Shown here in pieces: positions 631 to 18,014 of a stretch of DNA of 22,390 bases. Position 1 is the first letter of the stretch. Every line of letters starts with the position of its first letter. The stretch is from a virus: positions 1 through 22,390 of the IMG/VR virus record IMGVR_UViG_3300027637_000005. One strand, written 5' to 3'. Made by a program: the position numbers and the translations under genes. A model generated the notes under the pieces. The model worked only from the letters and a program-made list of their open reading frames with translations, was not told the DNA's origin and searched no databases.

Positions 631-1496
631 ACCGGTACCGCCGGAGCCGTGGCCACGGCCGGAGCCGCCACCGGGATCTGAACGGCGAACACGGTGTCGC
701 ACAGCCACCGGTGCATCCACACGGTCTCCGCCAGCCCGTACCACTGGTTCAGGGTGCGGTCGAGCGTGGCCGCCGGATCGGGCTGGTCCACGGACGTCGA
801 CCACAGGTGCACGGCAGGCGTCATGAACGCCCACACGAACCCTGCGGCGGGCGCCACGTCGGCGGGGCCGGTGATGTCGTACCCGGCGCCGAAGGACCAG
901 ACGGAGCCGAGGGGCGTACGGAGCTGTCCCGCACCGCCCTGCCCCTCCACCATCTGCGCGTACTCCACAGCGCCCTGGGCCACGGTGGAGACGTGGATGG
1001 TGCCGACGTAGCCGTGAGCGCCGTAGAACGCGTTCTCCAGGGCGGAGACAGCGGCTCCGGCCCCGGGGGCCAGCGGAGTCACGACAGACGCCCCTGCGCC
1101 CGTGAGCGTGGGCGTGATGGCCAGACCGCCGCCGTCCCACACCACCGCTTCGAGTTGGTTCTGCACGCCGGCCCGGTAGCGGGCCTGCACCCGCCGCCGG
1201 ACGTCCGCCTGGGTGGTGCCGACTGTCCCGCACTTGTACGTGGCGACGAGCCAGTACGGGTCAGCCTCTACGTACTCGGTCCCCTCGGGGAATTCCTTCT
1301 CGGCGTGCGGCGGGGCGCACGTCGGGTCGTACGGGACCACGGACATGCCACAGTCCGGTGCCTCGAACTGGTAGCCCGAGGAGACGCCCCGTCCGTCGAG
1401 CGTGCCCACCGATGCGGCAGCCGTGAGCAGACCGTAGCGGCGTGCGGGCGGTGCCGGAGCGGTGATCTCCTGGTAGTTGCTCAGGATCCTTGCCAT
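627..1496 (-). CDS. Virion structural protein, possibly a second (pentamer-type) capsid protein
   Basis: 289 residues starting MARILSNYQEITAPAPPARR, with AGAAGGGAGGG upstream of the ATG. It follows the major capsid gene directly, after a hairpin. The protein is soluble and rich in Ala, Gly, Val and Pro. The C-terminal third (around WYGLAETVWMHRWLCDTVFA) ends in a hydrophobic beta-like segment that recalls the C-terminal strand of HK97-fold capsid proteins. Some actinophages encode separate capsid hexamer and pentamer proteins next to each other, and a 289-aa gene right after a 587-aa capsid gene fits that plan. No catalytic motif is seen. Structural role is likely from position; the pentamer assignment is a guess that a structure prediction could test. 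Confidence 0.5.
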   Translation of the reverse strand: MARILSNYQEITAPAPPARRYGLLTAAASVGTLDGRGVSSGYQFEAPDCGMSVVPYDPTCAPPHAEKEFPEGTEYVEADPYWLVATYKCGTVGTTQADVRRRVQARYRAGVQNQLEAVVWDGGGLAITPTLTGAGASVVTPLAPGAGAAVSALENAFYGAHGYVGTIHVSTVAQGAVEYAQMVEGQGGAGQLRTPLGSVWSFGAGYDITGPADVAPAAGFVWAFMTPAVHLWSTSVDQPDPAATLDRTLNQWYGLAETVWMHRWLCDTVFAVQIPVAAPAVATAPAVPV

Positions 1497-1525
1497 GTGT
1501 CCGTCCCTCCCTTCTGTTCCTGGGT

Positions 1526-1559
1526 GGCGCCCCCGTCAAGGACGAGGGACGGGGGCGCC
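1526..1559 (-). terminator. Hairpin after the major capsid gene (partial terminator)
   Basis: Perfect 12-bp inverted repeat GGCGCCCCCGTC / GACGGGGGCGCC (1526-1537 with 1548-1559) and a 10-nt loop, 14 bp beyond the capsid stop codon on the leftward transcript. There is no clear U-tract, which is common in high-GC actinomycete terminators. It probably stops part of the transcription, or protects the 3' end, so that capsid mRNA exceeds mRNA of the genes beyond. Confidence 0.65.
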
Positions 1560-1573
1560 GGATCAGGGGTGGG

Positions 1574-3337
1574 TTACGCCGCCGGAGCTGCGCAGGACGT
1601 GTAGACCTGGTGACCGGTGGCGCCCGAGGGGCAGGCGTTGGCGGTGTAGAGGCGGACCTCACCGCACGGGAAGATCGGGGCGTAGCCCTCCTCCATGAAC
1701 AGCGCCGTGTAGAGGTTCTGGCGCAGGTTCGTGGAGTCGTACACGTTGGTCAGGGTCACGACGTCCTGACGCGCCAGGACGATGGCGCCCGCCGGGTAGA
1801 TCAGGAACTGCACGGTGGTCGGCAGGCCGGTGATCGGGACGATGGGGGCCGTGATGTCGCCGGGGCCCGCAGGCAGGTTGGACTGGGCGTCCTGCCAGCC
1901 ACGGATGAACTGCGGGCGGACGTTGCGGACGGAGAACCAGTTCATGATCGTGGCGTTCGCCAGGGCGAAGGGGTCGGCGTGCCACGCGTTGCGGCGGCCG
2001 ATGTCGGCGCGCCACTGCGCCAGCACCCACTGCGGGAGGATCACCTCCAGCACCCGGTTCTCGCTCATCTGCTCGCGGTAGCGCATGTCGATGGCGGCGA
2101 TGTCGACGGCGGCCAGGATGGAGGAGACGGCCGAGGTGTCGGCGGTCTCGCCCACACCACCCGCGCCCTGGGCGGGGATGACGATGGCGGCACCGGCCTG
2201 GGTCAGGATCTGGTTGATGACGTCCTCGTTCACCTCCCGCTCGTGCTTCAGGGTGAGGCCGTCGATGAGGGCGGCGACGTTCTCCCGGTAGCCCACGTCC
2301 TGAAGGAAGGAGCCGGTGATGCAGGTCACGGCCACGTCGAGACGGCGGTCCGTGAAGGTGGGGCACGGAAGCTCGGTGCAGTTCTTCGGGGTGTCCGCGA
2401 TGACCTGGGCCTCAGTGAGGCGCGTGAACGACGTCAGGGACGCGTCCATGATCTGCGCCCAGGACCAGTCGTTGGTGTAGTTGATGCCGCCACGCGGGGC
2501 CGTGGTCGTGGGCAGGTCGAGAAGGCCGTCCGACTCCCAGAGGGAGCACAGCTCGTAGCGGTTCTCCGACGGGGCGCACCAGCCGGCGGCGGCGGTGAGG
2601 GCACCCATGCTGTCCCCGCCTCGCTTGACGGAGTCCTGCCAGGACTTCATCAGGGAGCCGCCCGTGAGCCGCTCCTGCGAGCGGGCGTGGCTGAGGACGC
2701 CAGCGTCGTGCTCCCGATCGCCGGTCAGGGTCAGCTCGGCGCCACGGTCACGGGAGAAGGTGGCGAGGGCCCGCTCCGCCTTGATGCCGCCGCCGACCCG
2801 GGACGTGCCGAACTGGCCGAAGAGCCGGGCGGACGCCTCACCGATCTGGCGGACCGTGGTGGGCGTGCCCGCCTGGTGACCGAGGACGCCAGCGGCGTCG
2901 GCGGAGAGCTGCACCGTGATTCGGTCGCCCTTCGGCTCCGCCTTGGTGGGCTCCGGACGGGCCTGTGCGGCCATCTGGGACACGCTGGGAACAGGGGCCG
3001 CCGGGGCGACCGGCTCCGCCTGCGGGGCAACCACAGGCTCCGCCGGGGCCACGGGGGCCGGCTCCGCGAGCGGGGTCACGGAGGAGAACACGTCCTTGGC
3101 CGCCTGCACCGCCTGAGCGGCGCTCTCACGGCTCGCCAGCTCCGCCTGGAGGGTGGGGAGCGCAGCGGAGAGTTCGAGCAGCTCCGCAGCGGCTCCGGGC
3201 TCCTCGGAGGCGGAGAGTTCCTGACCCCGGGTCGCCACGCGGTTGAACTCGGCGCGCAGCTCCGCGTCAGTGGCCGTGGCGGCGTTGAACGCCTGCGGCT
3301 CCGCAGCGGGGGTCTCGGGGGTGGTCGGGTCTGCCAT
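1574..3337 (-). CDS. Major capsid protein with N-terminal scaffold-like domain
   Basis: 587 residues, start ATG at 3337 behind GAGAGGAG. Three parts are visible. Residues about 1-95 are Ala/Glu-rich and predicted helical or coiled coil, resembling the delta or scaffolding domain of HK97-type capsid precursors. Residues about 93-135 form a low-complexity Ala/Pro/Val linker. The remainder, best ordered from about residue 230, is the capsid body, with conserved-looking pieces such as LPTTTAPRGGINYTNDW and ERYLA-like helix-rich segments. Fusion of the scaffold explains the length; HK97-fold subunits without it are usually 300-400 residues. The capsid protease encoded upstream would remove the N-terminal part after shell assembly. 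The gene sits behind its own 432-bp control region and is followed by a hairpin, so it is probably expressed as a strong late unit. Confidence 0.85.
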   Translation of the reverse strand: MADPTTPETPAAEPQAFNAATATDAELRAEFNRVATRGQELSASEEPGAAAELLELSAALPTLQAELASRESAAQAVQAAKDVFSSVTPLAEPAPVAPAEPVVAPQAEPVAPAAPVPSVSQMAAQARPEPTKAEPKGDRITVQLSADAAGVLGHQAGTPTTVRQIGEASARLFGQFGTSRVGGGIKAERALATFSRDRGAELTLTGDREHDAGVLSHARSQERLTGGSLMKSWQDSVKRGGDSMGALTAAAGWCAPSENRYELCSLWESDGLLDLPTTTAPRGGINYTNDWSWAQIMDASLTSFTRLTEAQVIADTPKNCTELPCPTFTDRRLDVAVTCITGSFLQDVGYRENVAALIDGLTLKHEREVNEDVINQILTQAGAAIVIPAQGAGGVGETADTSAVSSILAAVDIAAIDMRYREQMSENRVLEVILPQWVLAQWRADIGRRNAWHADPFALANATIMNWFSVRNVRPQFIRGWQDAQSNLPAGPGDITAPIVPITGLPTTVQFLIYPAGAIVLARQDVVTLTNVYDSTNLRQNLYTALFMEEGYAPIFPCGEVRLYTANACPSGATGHQVYTSCAAPAA

Positions 3338-3475
3338 GGCGGGGCTCCTCTCGATCGGCAGACGGACAGTTCACGTCGCACGGATCGGCCCACAGCCAGC
3401 ACCCAAGCTGACCCCAAGACTACGCCCTCGCGGATTGTCACGCTAGGTAGTGGTTGAAAGCTGTACGGAATAGGC

Positions 3476-3586
3476 GTGTGCCGGGTTGTGCCGGATGTGC
3501 CGGGACCTCCGGATCATCTCTCACGTAAGGCTCTAACACTCTGATGATCGGAGCTTCCCGGCACATCCGGCACAGTGACTGCACAC
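3476..3586 (-). promoter_or_regulatory. Copy A of the 111-bp facing-tandem element (TGTGCCGGR units)
   Basis: Two tandems of a 9-bp unit face each other. TGTGCCGGG, TGTGCCGGA and TGTGCCGGG lie at 3477-3485, 3487-3495 and 3496-3504; their reverse complements CCCGGCACA and TCCGGCACA lie at 3557-3565 and 3566-3574. The inner edges are 52 bp apart. Each arm continues inward with a CTCCG-ATCATC-like extension, and a CTGCACAC box lies 4 bp outside the right arm. Read leftward, the element aligns with copy B read rightward, so both point the same way relative to the gene they precede. It lies 139 bp from the capsid start and is probably an operator or activator region. Confidence 0.8.
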
Positions 3587-3712
3587 TTTGCGTTTCCGCA
3601 GGTCAGGGCGTTTTGGGCAGAAGTCGATTTGTGACGGTTCCTCCTCTTAGGCTGTCTAACGATTAGCGATCGCAACCAGAATGCAAACCTCCGCTCCTCC
3701 CCGGACACACCT

Positions 3713-3753
3713 CGGGCCCCGAAGCGGCACGCAGAGTGCACACCCGGGGCCCG
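3713..3753 (-). terminator. Terminator-like hairpin before the capsid control region
   Basis: Inverted repeat CGGGCCCCG / CGGGGCCCG (3713-3721 with 3745-3753), with a smaller GCAC/GTGC stem inside the 23-nt loop. It follows the tandem TAG stops of the gene ending at 3770 in the leftward direction. It would end transcription from the packaging and head operon and separate it from the capsid promoter region. Confidence 0.6.
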
Positions 3754-3769
3754 TCACCCTTGGCCACTA

Positions 3770-3931
3770 CTACTTCTTCGGCGCCACCATCCGGAAGGTC
3801 CCGCCGCCCTTGGCGATGATCCTGCGGCGAACCTCCATGACCCCCGACGTGGCCGGGAGCTGCTCGGTGGACCCGTCCTTGTAGGTGATCAGATAGTCCT
3901 GCTTCGGCTTGGCCGCTCCACAGCAGGCCAT
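3770..3931 (-). CDS. Small Cys-start phage protein (53 aa)
   Basis: Begins MACCGAAKPKQDYLITYKDG and ends in a basic tail, followed by two adjacent TAG stops. The start at 3931 is chosen over an upstream in-frame start because AGAGGAGAG sits just before it and because the longer form would overlap the Acb2-like gene. A CC pair near the N-terminus, a YKDGS turn, and a later KGGGTFRMV segment give the look of small actinophage proteins with a Cys-rich start and an xGGT motif (possibly the DUF7196-type family, from memory). It follows the Acb2-like gene after 1 base and is the last gene before the terminator. Function unknown. Confidence 0.8.
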   Translation of the reverse strand: MACCGAAKPKQDYLITYKDGSTEQLPATSGVMEVRRRIIAKGGGTFRMVAPKK

Positions 3932-5332: not shown

Positions 5333-6126
5333 GGTCTCTGCCTCTCTGTCCAGTCGATCGTCTCACCGAGGACCACCGGCAGCATGGTGCAACGACAGTT
5401 GATCACCTCGGCCGCAGGGCCCCGGGGGTCTCCCGGGAACAGAAGCTGCGCCCCGCCCACCCGGAACGGCTCCCGCAGGAGTGTGCGTTGCTGGTCGGCC
5501 ACCGTGTGGGTGGGGCGGGTCCGGCTGTCCTCGGTGGCGATCCACTGCTTGAACGGGGCCGGGTCGCCCCGCTGTTCGGCCTCCAGCTCCGCCGCCCGGA
5601 ACACCCCCGCGTTGACGGCTCCGATCGTCTCGGTGCGCGCCACGGTCACCGCCCGGTGGGGCCAGCGCTCGCTGCCGGTGGCGGTGAGGACCACATTGAC
5701 CCGCTGTGCAATGTCGGGGATCGACTCCTGGTCACGGATGCCCCGCTCGATCTCGGCGACGACCAAGGCGTACACCTCATCCGGCAGACGGACCAGCCGG
5801 TTGCCGGACTCGTTCAGGTAATTGGCTACCCAAGGATCCCCAGACGGGTCACTTGTCCCGTTAACACGTCGCCATGCGTCACCGAGAATCCCACCGATAA
5901 CGGGCATAACCTCCACGTTGACCTGGTCCGTCCAGTACTCCGTGTGGTCGCTCACCCGGGACGGCTCCACGCCTCCGTCCCGTACGACGGAGGAGCGCAC
6001 CCGGTCGAGCCACCGGGTCAGGGACCGGAACCAGGTGCGCGCCACCCGCTCCTCCCCCTCCCGGATGAACGCCTGCGCCCGCAGGCGCCTGGGGAGCCCC
6101 TCGTCGTCAAGGGGTGGCGTGGTCAC
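5329..6126 (-). CDS. MuF-like minor capsid protein
   Basis: 265 residues starting at GTG 6126, overlapping the portal stop as GTGA (6123-6126). A longer in-frame reading extends inside the portal gene but has no family-like content, so the short form is chosen. The C-terminal part is a Mu gpF-type domain (about 160-252): VARTETIGAVNAG, FKQWIATEDSRTRPTH at 192-207, and NCRCTMLP at 243-250. MuF proteins sit at the portal vertex, help assembly and may be injected. Here the MuF domain is terminal and no toxin or ADP-ribosyltransferase domain is fused. The N-terminal 150 residues are helical and probably bind portal. The neighbours (portal before, protease after) confirm the call. Confidence 0.85.
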   Translation of the reverse strand: MTTPPLDDEGLPRRLRAQAFIREGEERVARTWFRSLTRWLDRVRSSVVRDGGVEPSRVSDHTEYWTDQVNVEVMPVIGGILGDAWRRVNGTSDPSGDPWVANYLNESGNRLVRLPDEVYALVVAEIERGIRDQESIPDIAQRVNVVLTATGSERWPHRAVTVARTETIGAVNAGVFRAAELEAEQRGDPAPFKQWIATEDSRTRPTHTVADQQRTLLREPFRVGGAQLLFPGDPRGPAAEVINCRCTMLPVVLGETIDWTERQRP

Positions 6127-15419: not shown

Positions 15420-16126
15420 GGTCCTACCCCCTTCTGCGCCTTGTCGACGTCACGCCGGGCGTTCGTGGCCCGGTCCTGCCCCCAGCCGTACTCGGCCCGG
15501 AGTGCACGCATGGAGGTACGCCCCCCGTTGCGCCGGTCGGAGTCGAGTACGCACTCGGCGTCCGCACTCAGCCGCACCGGCTCTTCGAATGCGGGTGCAC
15601 TCGGGGGAAGTGCGGGTGCACTCGGCACCGCACTCTCCTTGGAGTACACCGTGCAGTCGGGTGCACCTGCGCACTCCGGGTGGGCCCAGACGCACCCCGG
15701 AGGGAGTGCACCCGCACTCGGCTCCTCGGGTGCACCGGGTACGTCCTCGGGTGCGGGTGCACTCGGCTCCGGGTGCGGCTTCACCGACTGCACCTGGGTC
15801 CGGAACAGGTAGTGGATGCGCCACAGTACGAGGGGTGCGAGTGCACCCACCGCACTGATCAGGCCCCAGTGCACCGGGAGTACGCCGGCCGTCACCAGAT
15901 GCGAAGCCACGTTCATGACGACCATGGCGACCACGGCGGCCAGTACGTCCCGGTGCACCTGGAGTGCACGGATCACGTACAGGTCGAGTGCACCCGGTAC
16001 GGATGCGGCGACGAACCAGTGCACCCCGGTCGCCGTGGCGAGGGTGTACTCCGCGTGGGCGGTCCCGATGAGGGTGCACCCGAGTGCACCCCACAGGATC
16101 CAGTCGGTCCGGGTGCGCGCACTCAT
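15416..16126 (-). CDS. Multi-pass membrane protein, SpdB/DUF2637-like layout (236 aa)
   Basis: Start at ATG 16126 by ATGA overlap with the previous gene. Four membrane segments fill residues about 8-125, with ASVPGALDLYVIRALQVHRD after the second; this resembles the P-x-x-x-D-x-x-V pattern of DUF2637-type proteins in Streptomyces plasmids and integrative elements. Residues about 127-190 are a low-complexity Pro/Ala/Glu region with SAPA repeats; residues about 195-236 look like a small basic HTH-type tail (GGRTSMRALRAEYGWGQDRA). Half of the GTGCAC array lies in this gene. Spread proteins bind DNA and membrane during mycelial plasmid transfer. Family call is tentative. Confidence 0.6.
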   Translation of the reverse strand: MSARTRTDWILWGALGCTLIGTAHAEYTLATATGVHWFVAASVPGALDLYVIRALQVHRDVLAAVVAMVVMNVASHLVTAGVLPVHWGLISAVGALAPLVLWRIHYLFRTQVQSVKPHPEPSAPAPEDVPGAPEEPSAGALPPGCVWAHPECAGAPDCTVYSKESAVPSAPALPPSAPAFEEPVRLSADAECVLDSDRRNGGRTSMRALRAEYGWGQDRATNARRDVDKAQKGVGP

Positions 16127-17194: not shown

Positions 17195-17241
17195 TGCCCC
17201 GGGCCCGATTCGATCGGGCACCGTCTCGGCGTTGCCGGGGC
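17195..17241 (-). ncRNA. tRNA-like acceptor/T-arm minihelix, copy 1
   Basis: On the minus strand GCCCCGG (17235-17241) pairs perfectly with CCGGGGC (17196-17202). The 17-nt T arm GCCCG-ATCGAAT-CGGGC (17203-17219) abuts the 3' half of that stem as in a tRNA, and an A stands at the discriminator position (17195). A 15-nt linker replaces the D and anticodon arms. There is no encoded CCA. It lies between the TAA of the gene ending at 17261 and the ribosome binding site of the gene starting at 17168. It could be an RNase P/RNase Z processing site or a decayed tRNA; a simple terminator is also possible. Confidence 0.5.
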
Positions 17242-17260
17242 TGTCTGGCTACGTGCTGAG

Positions 17261-17623
17261 TTAGTCCCACTCGTCGACAGTCAGGTTGTCGCCGCTCCAC
17301 AGCCGACCGGGGGCGATACACCCCGTCAGGTACTCCGCGCAGCCGTCGTAGGTTCGCGGACTGGTCAGCACCGCTCCGTACCATCCGGGCCAGTCCCGGA
17401 TGACCGACCAGCCGAAGTAAGCGGCGTAGCCGATGCGGTATACCTCCCGTCCGCCCAAACGCGGGTTGTCCCACGACATACGCAGAACGCGACGTCGGCC
17501 GGAGAGGTCATGGAAGCCGTCACGGGTGAGCGGCAGCATGGCCAACTCGTTACAGTGGACGGACACCGTTCCCGGTACGTCGAGGGGAACCTGACGTCCG
17601 TCTACGGTGATGGTGCGGGTCAT
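17261..17623 (-). CDS. Hypothetical protein (120 aa)
   Basis: Begins MTRTITVDGRQVPLDVPGTV; AAGGAG stands upstream of ATG 17623, and the longer upstream frame would run through the tRNA-like element. Trp/Tyr-rich middle (RIGYAAYFGWSVIRDWPGWY), two cysteines nearby (DGCAEYLTGC), acidic end. No membrane helix and no known motif. It is flanked on both sides by a tRNA-like element. Unknown role. Confidence 0.72.
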   Translation of the reverse strand: MTRTITVDGRQVPLDVPGTVSVHCNELAMLPLTRDGFHDLSGRRRVLRMSWDNPRLGGREVYRIGYAAYFGWSVIRDWPGWYGAVLTSPRTYDGCAEYLTGCIAPGRLWSGDNLTVDEWD

Positions 17624-17650
17624 ATCGTTCTCCTTCAGGTCTTGCGGGAG

Positions 17651-17692
17651 TGCCCCGGACGGGAGTCGAACCCGCCCTGCGACCATCGGGGC
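17651..17692 (-). ncRNA. tRNA-like acceptor/T-arm minihelix, copy 2
   Basis: On the minus strand GCCCCGA (17686-17692) pairs six of seven with CCGGGGC (17652-17658). A 17-nt T arm with the canonical loop, GCGGG-TTCGACT-CCCGT (17659-17675), is directly adjacent, and an A sits at the discriminator place (17651). The linker that replaces the D and anticodon arms is only 10 nt. The 3' flank CTCCCG is shared with copy 1. It begins 9 bp after the TAA of the gene ending at 17702. Its T loop matches every conserved tRNA position (G53, T54, T55, C56, A58, C61). Confidence 0.55.
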
Positions 17693-17926: not shown

Positions 17927-17975
17927 GTCGTTCTCCTCAGGTCTCCCGGACTACCGAACTTCACCTTGATGACTT

Positions 17976-18014
17976 ATCTAAACATCAAGGGGTGTGGACT
18001 GTCAACCCGAGACA
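17976..18014 (-). promoter_or_regulatory. Leftward promoter P1 with TGTC-N7-GACA operator
   Basis: Perfect -35 TTGACA (18000-18005 on the minus strand), 18-nt spacer, -10-like TTAGAT (17976-17981). The palindrome TGTC-AACCCGA-GACA (18000-18014) covers the -35. The sequence matches promoter P2 near 21.87 kb across the -35, the palindrome and the region TTTAnnTAAGTCATCAAG. Arms CTTGATG / CATCAAG also flank the -10. The -35 lies across the helicase stop codon, so this is an internal promoter for the genes at 17.9 kb and leftward. Confidence 0.75.

Follow-up and report, generated by a model that had tools for sequence, protein, structure and literature searches.

Intercistronic elements resembling the top half of tRNA in phage and integrative-element operons, and their possible role in mRNA processing

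A family of RNA elements, each the 12-bp top half of a tRNA without an anticodon arm, occupies gaps between genes in phages and integrative elements. Its members are built from a 5-bp acceptor stem, a 10-nt bridge (GATGGTCGYA), a 7-bp T stem, the loop TTCGAYT and N73-C74, with no CCA. The analyses below establish the structure and its length of 12 bp, the selection on the RNA of the sense strand, the placement and the confinement to mobile elements. We consider it most likely, at somewhat better than even chances, that host RNase P and a 3' tRNA enzyme process operon mRNA at these elements. The starting observation, a pair of tRNA-like minihelices in one viral window (the whole stretch of 22,390 nucleotides that was analysed), is partly confirmed and proves wider than first noted.

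The two elements of the window and their flanking genes

The positions at which the preliminary description had placed two elements hold, and their strand is minus, that of the flanking genes (Table 1). On this strand genes B, A and C are consecutive. Element 2 lies 9 nt past the gene B stop and 27 nt ahead of the gene A ATG, while element 1 lies 19 nt past the gene A stop and 26 nt ahead of the gene C ATG. The measured spacers bear out the earlier statement that each element is preceded by a TAA stop and followed by a ribosome-binding site and that the two flank a single gene. Gene A has 73% DNA identity in Streptomyces phage BabyGotBac; a search for gene B orthologues found none. Both elements carry CTCCCG directly after A73 and have a common trailer, CACTCCCG.

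Table 1. Coordinates of the two elements, their parts and the neighbouring genes in the window
Feature	Position	Strand	Sequence or product	Remarks
Element 2	17692..17651	minus	GCCCC GATGGTCGCA GGGCGGG TTCGACT CCCGTCC GGGGC A, then C	
Element 2, acceptor 5' strand	17688..17692	minus	GCCCC	Partner 17652-17656; five pairs covary (58 sequences)
Element 2, bridge	17678..17687	minus	GATGGTCGCA	GG sited like D-loop G18G19 of tRNA
Element 2, T arm	17657..17677	minus	7-bp stem GGGCGGG/CCCGTCC, loop TTCGACT	Covariation and fold
Element 2, discriminator	17650..17651	minus	A73 and C74	Next base T, hence no CCA
Element 1	17241..17195	minus	GCCCCGG CAACGCCGAGACGGT GCCCG ATCGAAT CGGGC CCGGGGC A	A73, C74
Element 1, anatomy	17195..17241	minus	7+5 bp; 15-nt bridge with hairpin GCCG-AGA-CGGT	Loop ATCGAAT instead of TTCGANT
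Gene B	17926-17702	minus	74 aa, no family	ORF by reading; upstream of element 2
Gene A	17623-17261	minus	120 aa, phrog_26751, function not assigned by PHROG match	Between both elements; PHROG E 1.1e-50
Gene C	17168-17043	minus	41 aa, no family	ORF by reading; downstream of element 1

Element 2 is a canonical family member (model R1, 66.9 bits, E 4.7e-20 to 4.4e-19). It had been read as a 7-bp acceptor stem on an exact 17-nt T arm; pair 7 of that reading is an A.C mismatch, and the minimum-energy fold agrees with the covariation on 5+7 pairs instead, leaving the total of 12 bp intact. For element 1 the described anatomy of 7+5 pairs and A73 stands, while the T loop is not exact, having A at T54. 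Model R1 gives no match to element 1. Its fold has a z of -2.5, and the best fold is a plain hairpin because the self-complementary loop AUCGAAU can close as AU-CGA-AU. Element 1 may have diverged or decayed from the family, or may be kept for its helix only; its trailer, its arms and its place are the sole basis on which it is assigned there. Fully paired elements were absent from 496 of 500 first-order Markov shuffles of the window, appeared once in four and twice in none; two such elements in the window are not a chance expectation.

Neither element was scored as a tRNA by ARAGORN or Rfam, as had been predicted, and across the family a short bridge, 10 nt long in 125 of 207 elements, replaces the anticodon arm; a full tRNA was rejected. 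A tmRNA was rejected as well, with no call in the window and CCA in only 6 of 207 elements. Rho-independent termination, for which a GC-rich helix past a stop codon would be fitting, has next to no probability: base counts after the elements show no T run, a scan for intrinsic terminators found none near the window elements, and a terminator does not call for a T-loop consensus.

Three other features of the window were noted. Positions 15695-15773 hold a long, near-perfect GC-rich inverted repeat with a chance match to a microRNA model. ARAGORN reports a 96-nt tRNA-Gly at 1312-1407 (minus strand) that overlaps long ORFs and is probably false. Upstream of gene B, at about 17969-18009 (minus strand), hexamers resembling TTGACA and TAGATA were seen by eye about 19 nt apart; a promoter scan did not report the pair.

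RNA structure and covariation

Covariation was assessed on 58 sequences picked by the core GATGGTCGNA and the loop GGTTCRANTCC alone, pairing not being demanded. In the 5+7 structure 97.0% of the predicted pairs form, compared with 58.2% in shuffles, and the covariation score is 0.954 against 0.185, a value reached by none of 500 shuffles. Changes on both sides of a pair fill 242 cells (66.5 in shuffles), and controls in which the structure was slid were no better than shuffle level. A 6+6 reading scores lower (0.900) because G6 is invariant and does not covary. The shuffle controls take no account of relatedness, but descent alone is an insufficient account of the signal, since 45 more types of pair were seen and every variable pair showed changes.

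In more than 50 unrelated sequences, changes in the 5' acceptor strand are matched by changes in the 3' strand. This finding bears on the proposal that the elements are decayed tRNA genes or attachment-site remnants derived from tRNA 3' halves. The attP sites of P22 and HF2 do contain tRNA 3' parts (PMC8022706, PMC8707807), and element 1 may be a decayed copy. With a covarying 5' strand, several copies per genome and 207 distinct members, however, such an origin is ruled out for the family as a whole, and we regard it as extremely improbable; the suggestion of decayed tRNAs made in the preliminary description survives only as a possible account of element 1.

On the coding strand G.U pairs outnumber A.C pairs by 34 to 1 (p 2e-9), and by 75 to 9 in a larger set; therefore the sense transcript is the folded and selected molecule. 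An alternative at the DNA level would have folded single-stranded DNA serve as a recombination site, like integron attC between cassettes, in modular gene exchange. One element per ORF end, a shared orientation and the replacement of elements with retention of the trailer (seen in Cafasso and Morgana, below) would suit it. Integron attC uses the bottom strand, whereas the G.U to A.C comparison shows that the coding strand folds here, which rules against an attC-like site; together with the tRNA-type loop this makes recombination a very unlikely function.

Helix length is compensated, a T stem of 7 bp going with an acceptor of 5 and a T stem of 6 with an acceptor of 6, so that the total remains 12 (Fisher p 4.8e-4). 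Conservation of the T loop in relatives had been proposed as a test of the first description; the loop is conserved, with the consensus TTCRANY in the collected elements, and element 2 withstands the test. Two kinds of exception were found. One subclass, in cluster H mycobacteriophages (loci L129, L383 and L384), with several copies per genome, has the bridge ACTGGCAGACA, the T loop TTCRAGT (nucleotide 59 is G) and 11 pairs rather than 12. Other elements have longer bridges holding a small hairpin.

The bridge is 10 nt long in 125 of the 207 collected elements and contains GG in 203. Its second nucleotide after the GG covaries with T-loop nucleotide 59 (mutual information 0.414, null maximum 0.078), the combinations being GGTC with C59, GGTT with T59 and GGCA with G59. 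This pattern suggests a tertiary contact between the bridge GG and the T loop like that at the tRNA elbow; shared ancestry contributes to the signal. Alternatively, the GG may derive from a variable loop (GGUC) and not mimic a D loop.

At the 3' end, C74 is present in 180 of the 206 elements that have a base there and C75 in about 9%. Among tRNA genes at the same loci 93% have C74, and about half of those in GC-rich loci have C75. The 3' style of the elements is that of CCA-less phage tRNAs, because tRNA genes there share C74, often without C75. A occupies position -1 in 52% of the elements and U in 11%, while in tRNA genes of the same loci U accounts for 54%.

Distribution and placement in operons

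A search of related phages for the same elements had been suggested in the preliminary description, and many intergenic members were found. Using blastn with the window region, an intergenic match in Gordonia phage VanLee was obtained that spans exactly element 2 (93% identical); VanLee has 17 elements, every one on the minus strand. Members also lie in gaps of Mycobacterium phages SWU2, Phlei, Sheen and MyraDee and of cluster-H phages, of Streptomyces phages Dagobah, Endor1 and Vanseggelen, of Gordonia phages Cafasso, Morgana and MakoManhole, and of Microbacterium phage Appa and its kin. A copy in Mycobacterium phage Journey13 begins directly after the gp75 stop, yet within the annotated gp74 start region.

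Pattern scans of IMG/VR returned at least 120 stretches and at least 207 distinct elements outside ARAGORN tRNAs; these counts are lower bounds from pattern-based scans, biased toward the GATGGTCG type and toward GC-rich phages. Slices of ordinary tRNA arrays that the first such scan returned along with true elements were removed using ARAGORN. In a scan of 84,980 bacterial genomes, the matches listed came mostly from Streptomyces, Nonomuraea and other Actinomycetes, and in the 13 genomes searched whole the matches group at one locus. With an even draw and strict filters, a match was found in 4 of 395 other Actinomycetota genomes and in 0 of 394 other Bacteroidota genomes. In Nonomuraea, five elements lie within 1.6 kb at a locus that is an integrative element encoding GntR, NUDIX, WhiB, DNA polymerase A, Prim-Pol and integrase. 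Bacteroidota members occur in Bacteroides phage BF1-TP2, a Parabacteroides plasmid and Hymenobacter. The family is confined to mobile elements and occurs in phages and integrative elements of Actinomycetota and Bacteroidota. Many matches to the bare pattern outside the actinobacteria lack the pairing and were set aside as chance or Ser-type tRNAs, as was a plasmid match inside erm(55) of Mycobacteroides chelonae, which runs antisense to the gene and appears fortuitous.

At gathering score, no Rfam 15 family matches the window elements or 11 element-rich loci, apart from one true tRNA (at L171). No description of these elements was found in Rfam or in the open-access papers searched.

The elements have a characteristic position with respect to genes. 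A stop codon of an open frame lies no more than 80 nt upstream on the gene strand in 87% of 193 elements, with a mode of 5-10 nt. Where Shine-Dalgarno-led starts were detected in the same set, their median distance downstream is 45 nt. Antisense and random positions differ from the elements in this stop and start context. At each of the 34 loci that hold two or more elements, these share a single strand and are codirectional with the genes. The VanLee leftward operon has an element in 16 of its 17 gaps of at least 60 nt and in none of 14 shorter junctions; therefore the elements separate groups of closely spaced genes. The rightward operons of VanLee have none.

This placement is also what could be expected of a stability module, in which the fold, left uncut or cut on one side, would block exoribonucleases and protect the 3' end of the upstream mRNA, or shield one unit from the next. 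The site 5-10 nt past a stop codon, the very GC-rich helix and the scarcity of U-tract terminators in GC-rich hosts (none near the window elements) all favor such a module. Any hairpin would suffice for it, however, and the T loop, the GG bridge, C74 and the compensated 12 bp are left unexplained; we consider it unlikely, if the first alternative to keep in mind. Less probable is a decoy, also raised in the preliminary description, or a trans regulator, an element that, excised or embedded, titrates RNase P, the CCA enzyme, T-loop modifying enzymes or a defence nuclease. True tRNA top-half geometry and up to 17 copies per genome (in VanLee) agree with a decoy, but it needs neither the strict siting of one per gap after stops, nor codirectionality, nor absence from the VanLee rightward operons; moreover, many genomes have only 1-3 copies, and there is no anticodon for anticodon nucleases.

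A third alternative acts on transcription: the nascent RNA would modify or pause RNA polymerase, as the HK022 put antiterminators do, at repeated points along the operon. Repetition in operons, a sense-strand RNA structure and restriction to mobile elements are compatible with this. The put RNAs consist of two stem-loops close to promoters and have no tRNA T loop; given this different build and a fold that is the same across two phyla, we rate the idea a shade below the decoy. Gene-specific regulation was rejected, since relatives of gene A at L365 and L366 have no family element (a scan there found only stretches resembling ordinary tRNA sequence) and the VanLee elements flank unrelated genes.

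Orthologous gaps of Cafasso and Morgana retain an element, which in some cases differs although its trailer is kept, as if elements had been exchanged or evolved quickly on their own. For example, the gap at 2835-2935 in Cafasso (L132) and that at 5361-5460 in Morgana (L385) have different elements and an identical trailer. In the L132 gaps at 748-3861 and in VanLee (L006, 72158-81458), many elements are trailed by a small hairpin and then by a conserved GGCACCCAAC ahead of the ribosome-binding site. This stretch would form the 5' end region of the downstream mRNA if cleavage occurred.

Possible processing by RNase P and tRNA 3' enzymes

Binding of bacterial RNase P to a substrate involves the T stem-loop, from which the enzyme measures 12 bp to the cleavage site, and pairing with positions 73-75; the enzyme also cuts model hairpins consisting of acceptor and T arm only (PMC11143913). 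Recognition of the elements by RNase P and RNase Z, cleavage and an effect on expression are steps that we infer from the 12-bp ruler, the T loop and C74. The family keeps the published RNase P features except C75, and RNase P processing is therefore held to be the most likely reading. The equation with a minimal RNase P substrate made in the preliminary description is apt for element 2 and the family, which have a 12-bp coaxial helix and a T loop, and not for element 1, which lacks the loop. Its proposal of putative processing sites at which the operon mRNA would be cut fits the sense-strand structure, the T-loop consensus, the compensated 12 bp, C74 and the operon placement. The host phyla, Actinomycetota and Bacteroidota, share only general machinery such as RNase P, which we count in favor of processing.

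In the proposed mechanism, the polycistronic transcript of a phage or integrative element would form a 12-bp acceptor/T-arm helix in each gap that follows a translational unit. The T loop would probably pack on the bridge GG, so that the fold presents the acceptor end and elbow of a tRNA. The 5' cut, a few nucleotides past the stop codon, would be made by host RNase P and the 3' cut, at N73|C74, by RNase Z or another tRNA 3' enzyme, splitting the operon into separate mRNAs with the 42-nt element freed or left on.

Several observations speak against RNase P. Position -1 is A in about half of the elements, so the leader is not typical of its substrates; without an encoded CCA the contact with RNase P RNA is incomplete; an 11-bp subclass exists, and element 1 has no T loop; and the conserved GATGGTCGNA letters beyond GG exceed known RNase P needs. 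The broader proposition, that these are an undescribed and very widespread class of minimal elbow-type tRNA mimics forming a general punctuation code for operon mRNA in DNA phages and integrative elements of at least two phyla, read by host RNase P and RNase Z, is in our judgment as apt to prove wrong as right.

In mitochondria, tRNAs punctuate transcripts as cutting points. The likeness lies in tRNA structures between polycistronic genes, proposed here as RNase P and RNase Z cut points, and in the same-strand elements found between genes in most gaps of at least 60 nt in the VanLee leftward operon. Unlike the mitochondrial structures, those described here are not tRNAs (they have no anticodon arm, a compressed D region and no CCA), and they belong to phages and integrative elements. 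RNase P model minihelices such as AT1 have the same acceptor stem, T stem and T loop with 12 bp and are cleaved in vitro by bacterial RNase P RNA (PMC11143913), while the elements are natural, repeated and CCA-less, with strands joined by a conserved 10-nt GG bridge. The tRNA-like domain of tmRNA also combines acceptor and T arm with a reduced, GG-containing D region and no anticodon arm; the elements differ in having no CCA or mRNA-like part, in lying in mRNA gaps and in their many copies. Among other non-tRNA RNase P substrates, the phage C4 antisense RNA (P1/P7) is cut by RNase P, a step only proposed here, and C4 is a single regulatory RNA whereas the elements are serial, intercistronic and equipped with a T loop. 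Viral tRNA-like structures of the TYMV type share the acceptor/T-arm fold in viral RNA, but those are at the 3' genome ends of RNA viruses with a pseudoknotted acceptor, and the elements are in DNA phages, inside operon mRNA.

If the processing reading is true, bacterial viruses would make independent use of the mitochondrial punctuation trick by means of a stripped natural tRNA mimic some 42 nt long. The division of leftward small-gene accessory operons of actinobacteriophages into units would then be accounted for, and a large natural set would join the non-tRNA substrates of RNase P. A compact processing element would become available for GC-rich hosts, and annotators would gain a recognisable feature in gaps presently marked empty. 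Should cleavage prove wrong, a strongly covarying RNA family that has hundreds of members and is absent from Rfam still demands explanation.

Bacterial Ro proteins bind Y RNAs, some of which have tRNA-like parts. In VanLee (NC_073474, 65454-67367) a tRNA-Arg adjoins a gene for a Ro-like RNA-binding protein, and a link to the elements is conceivable.
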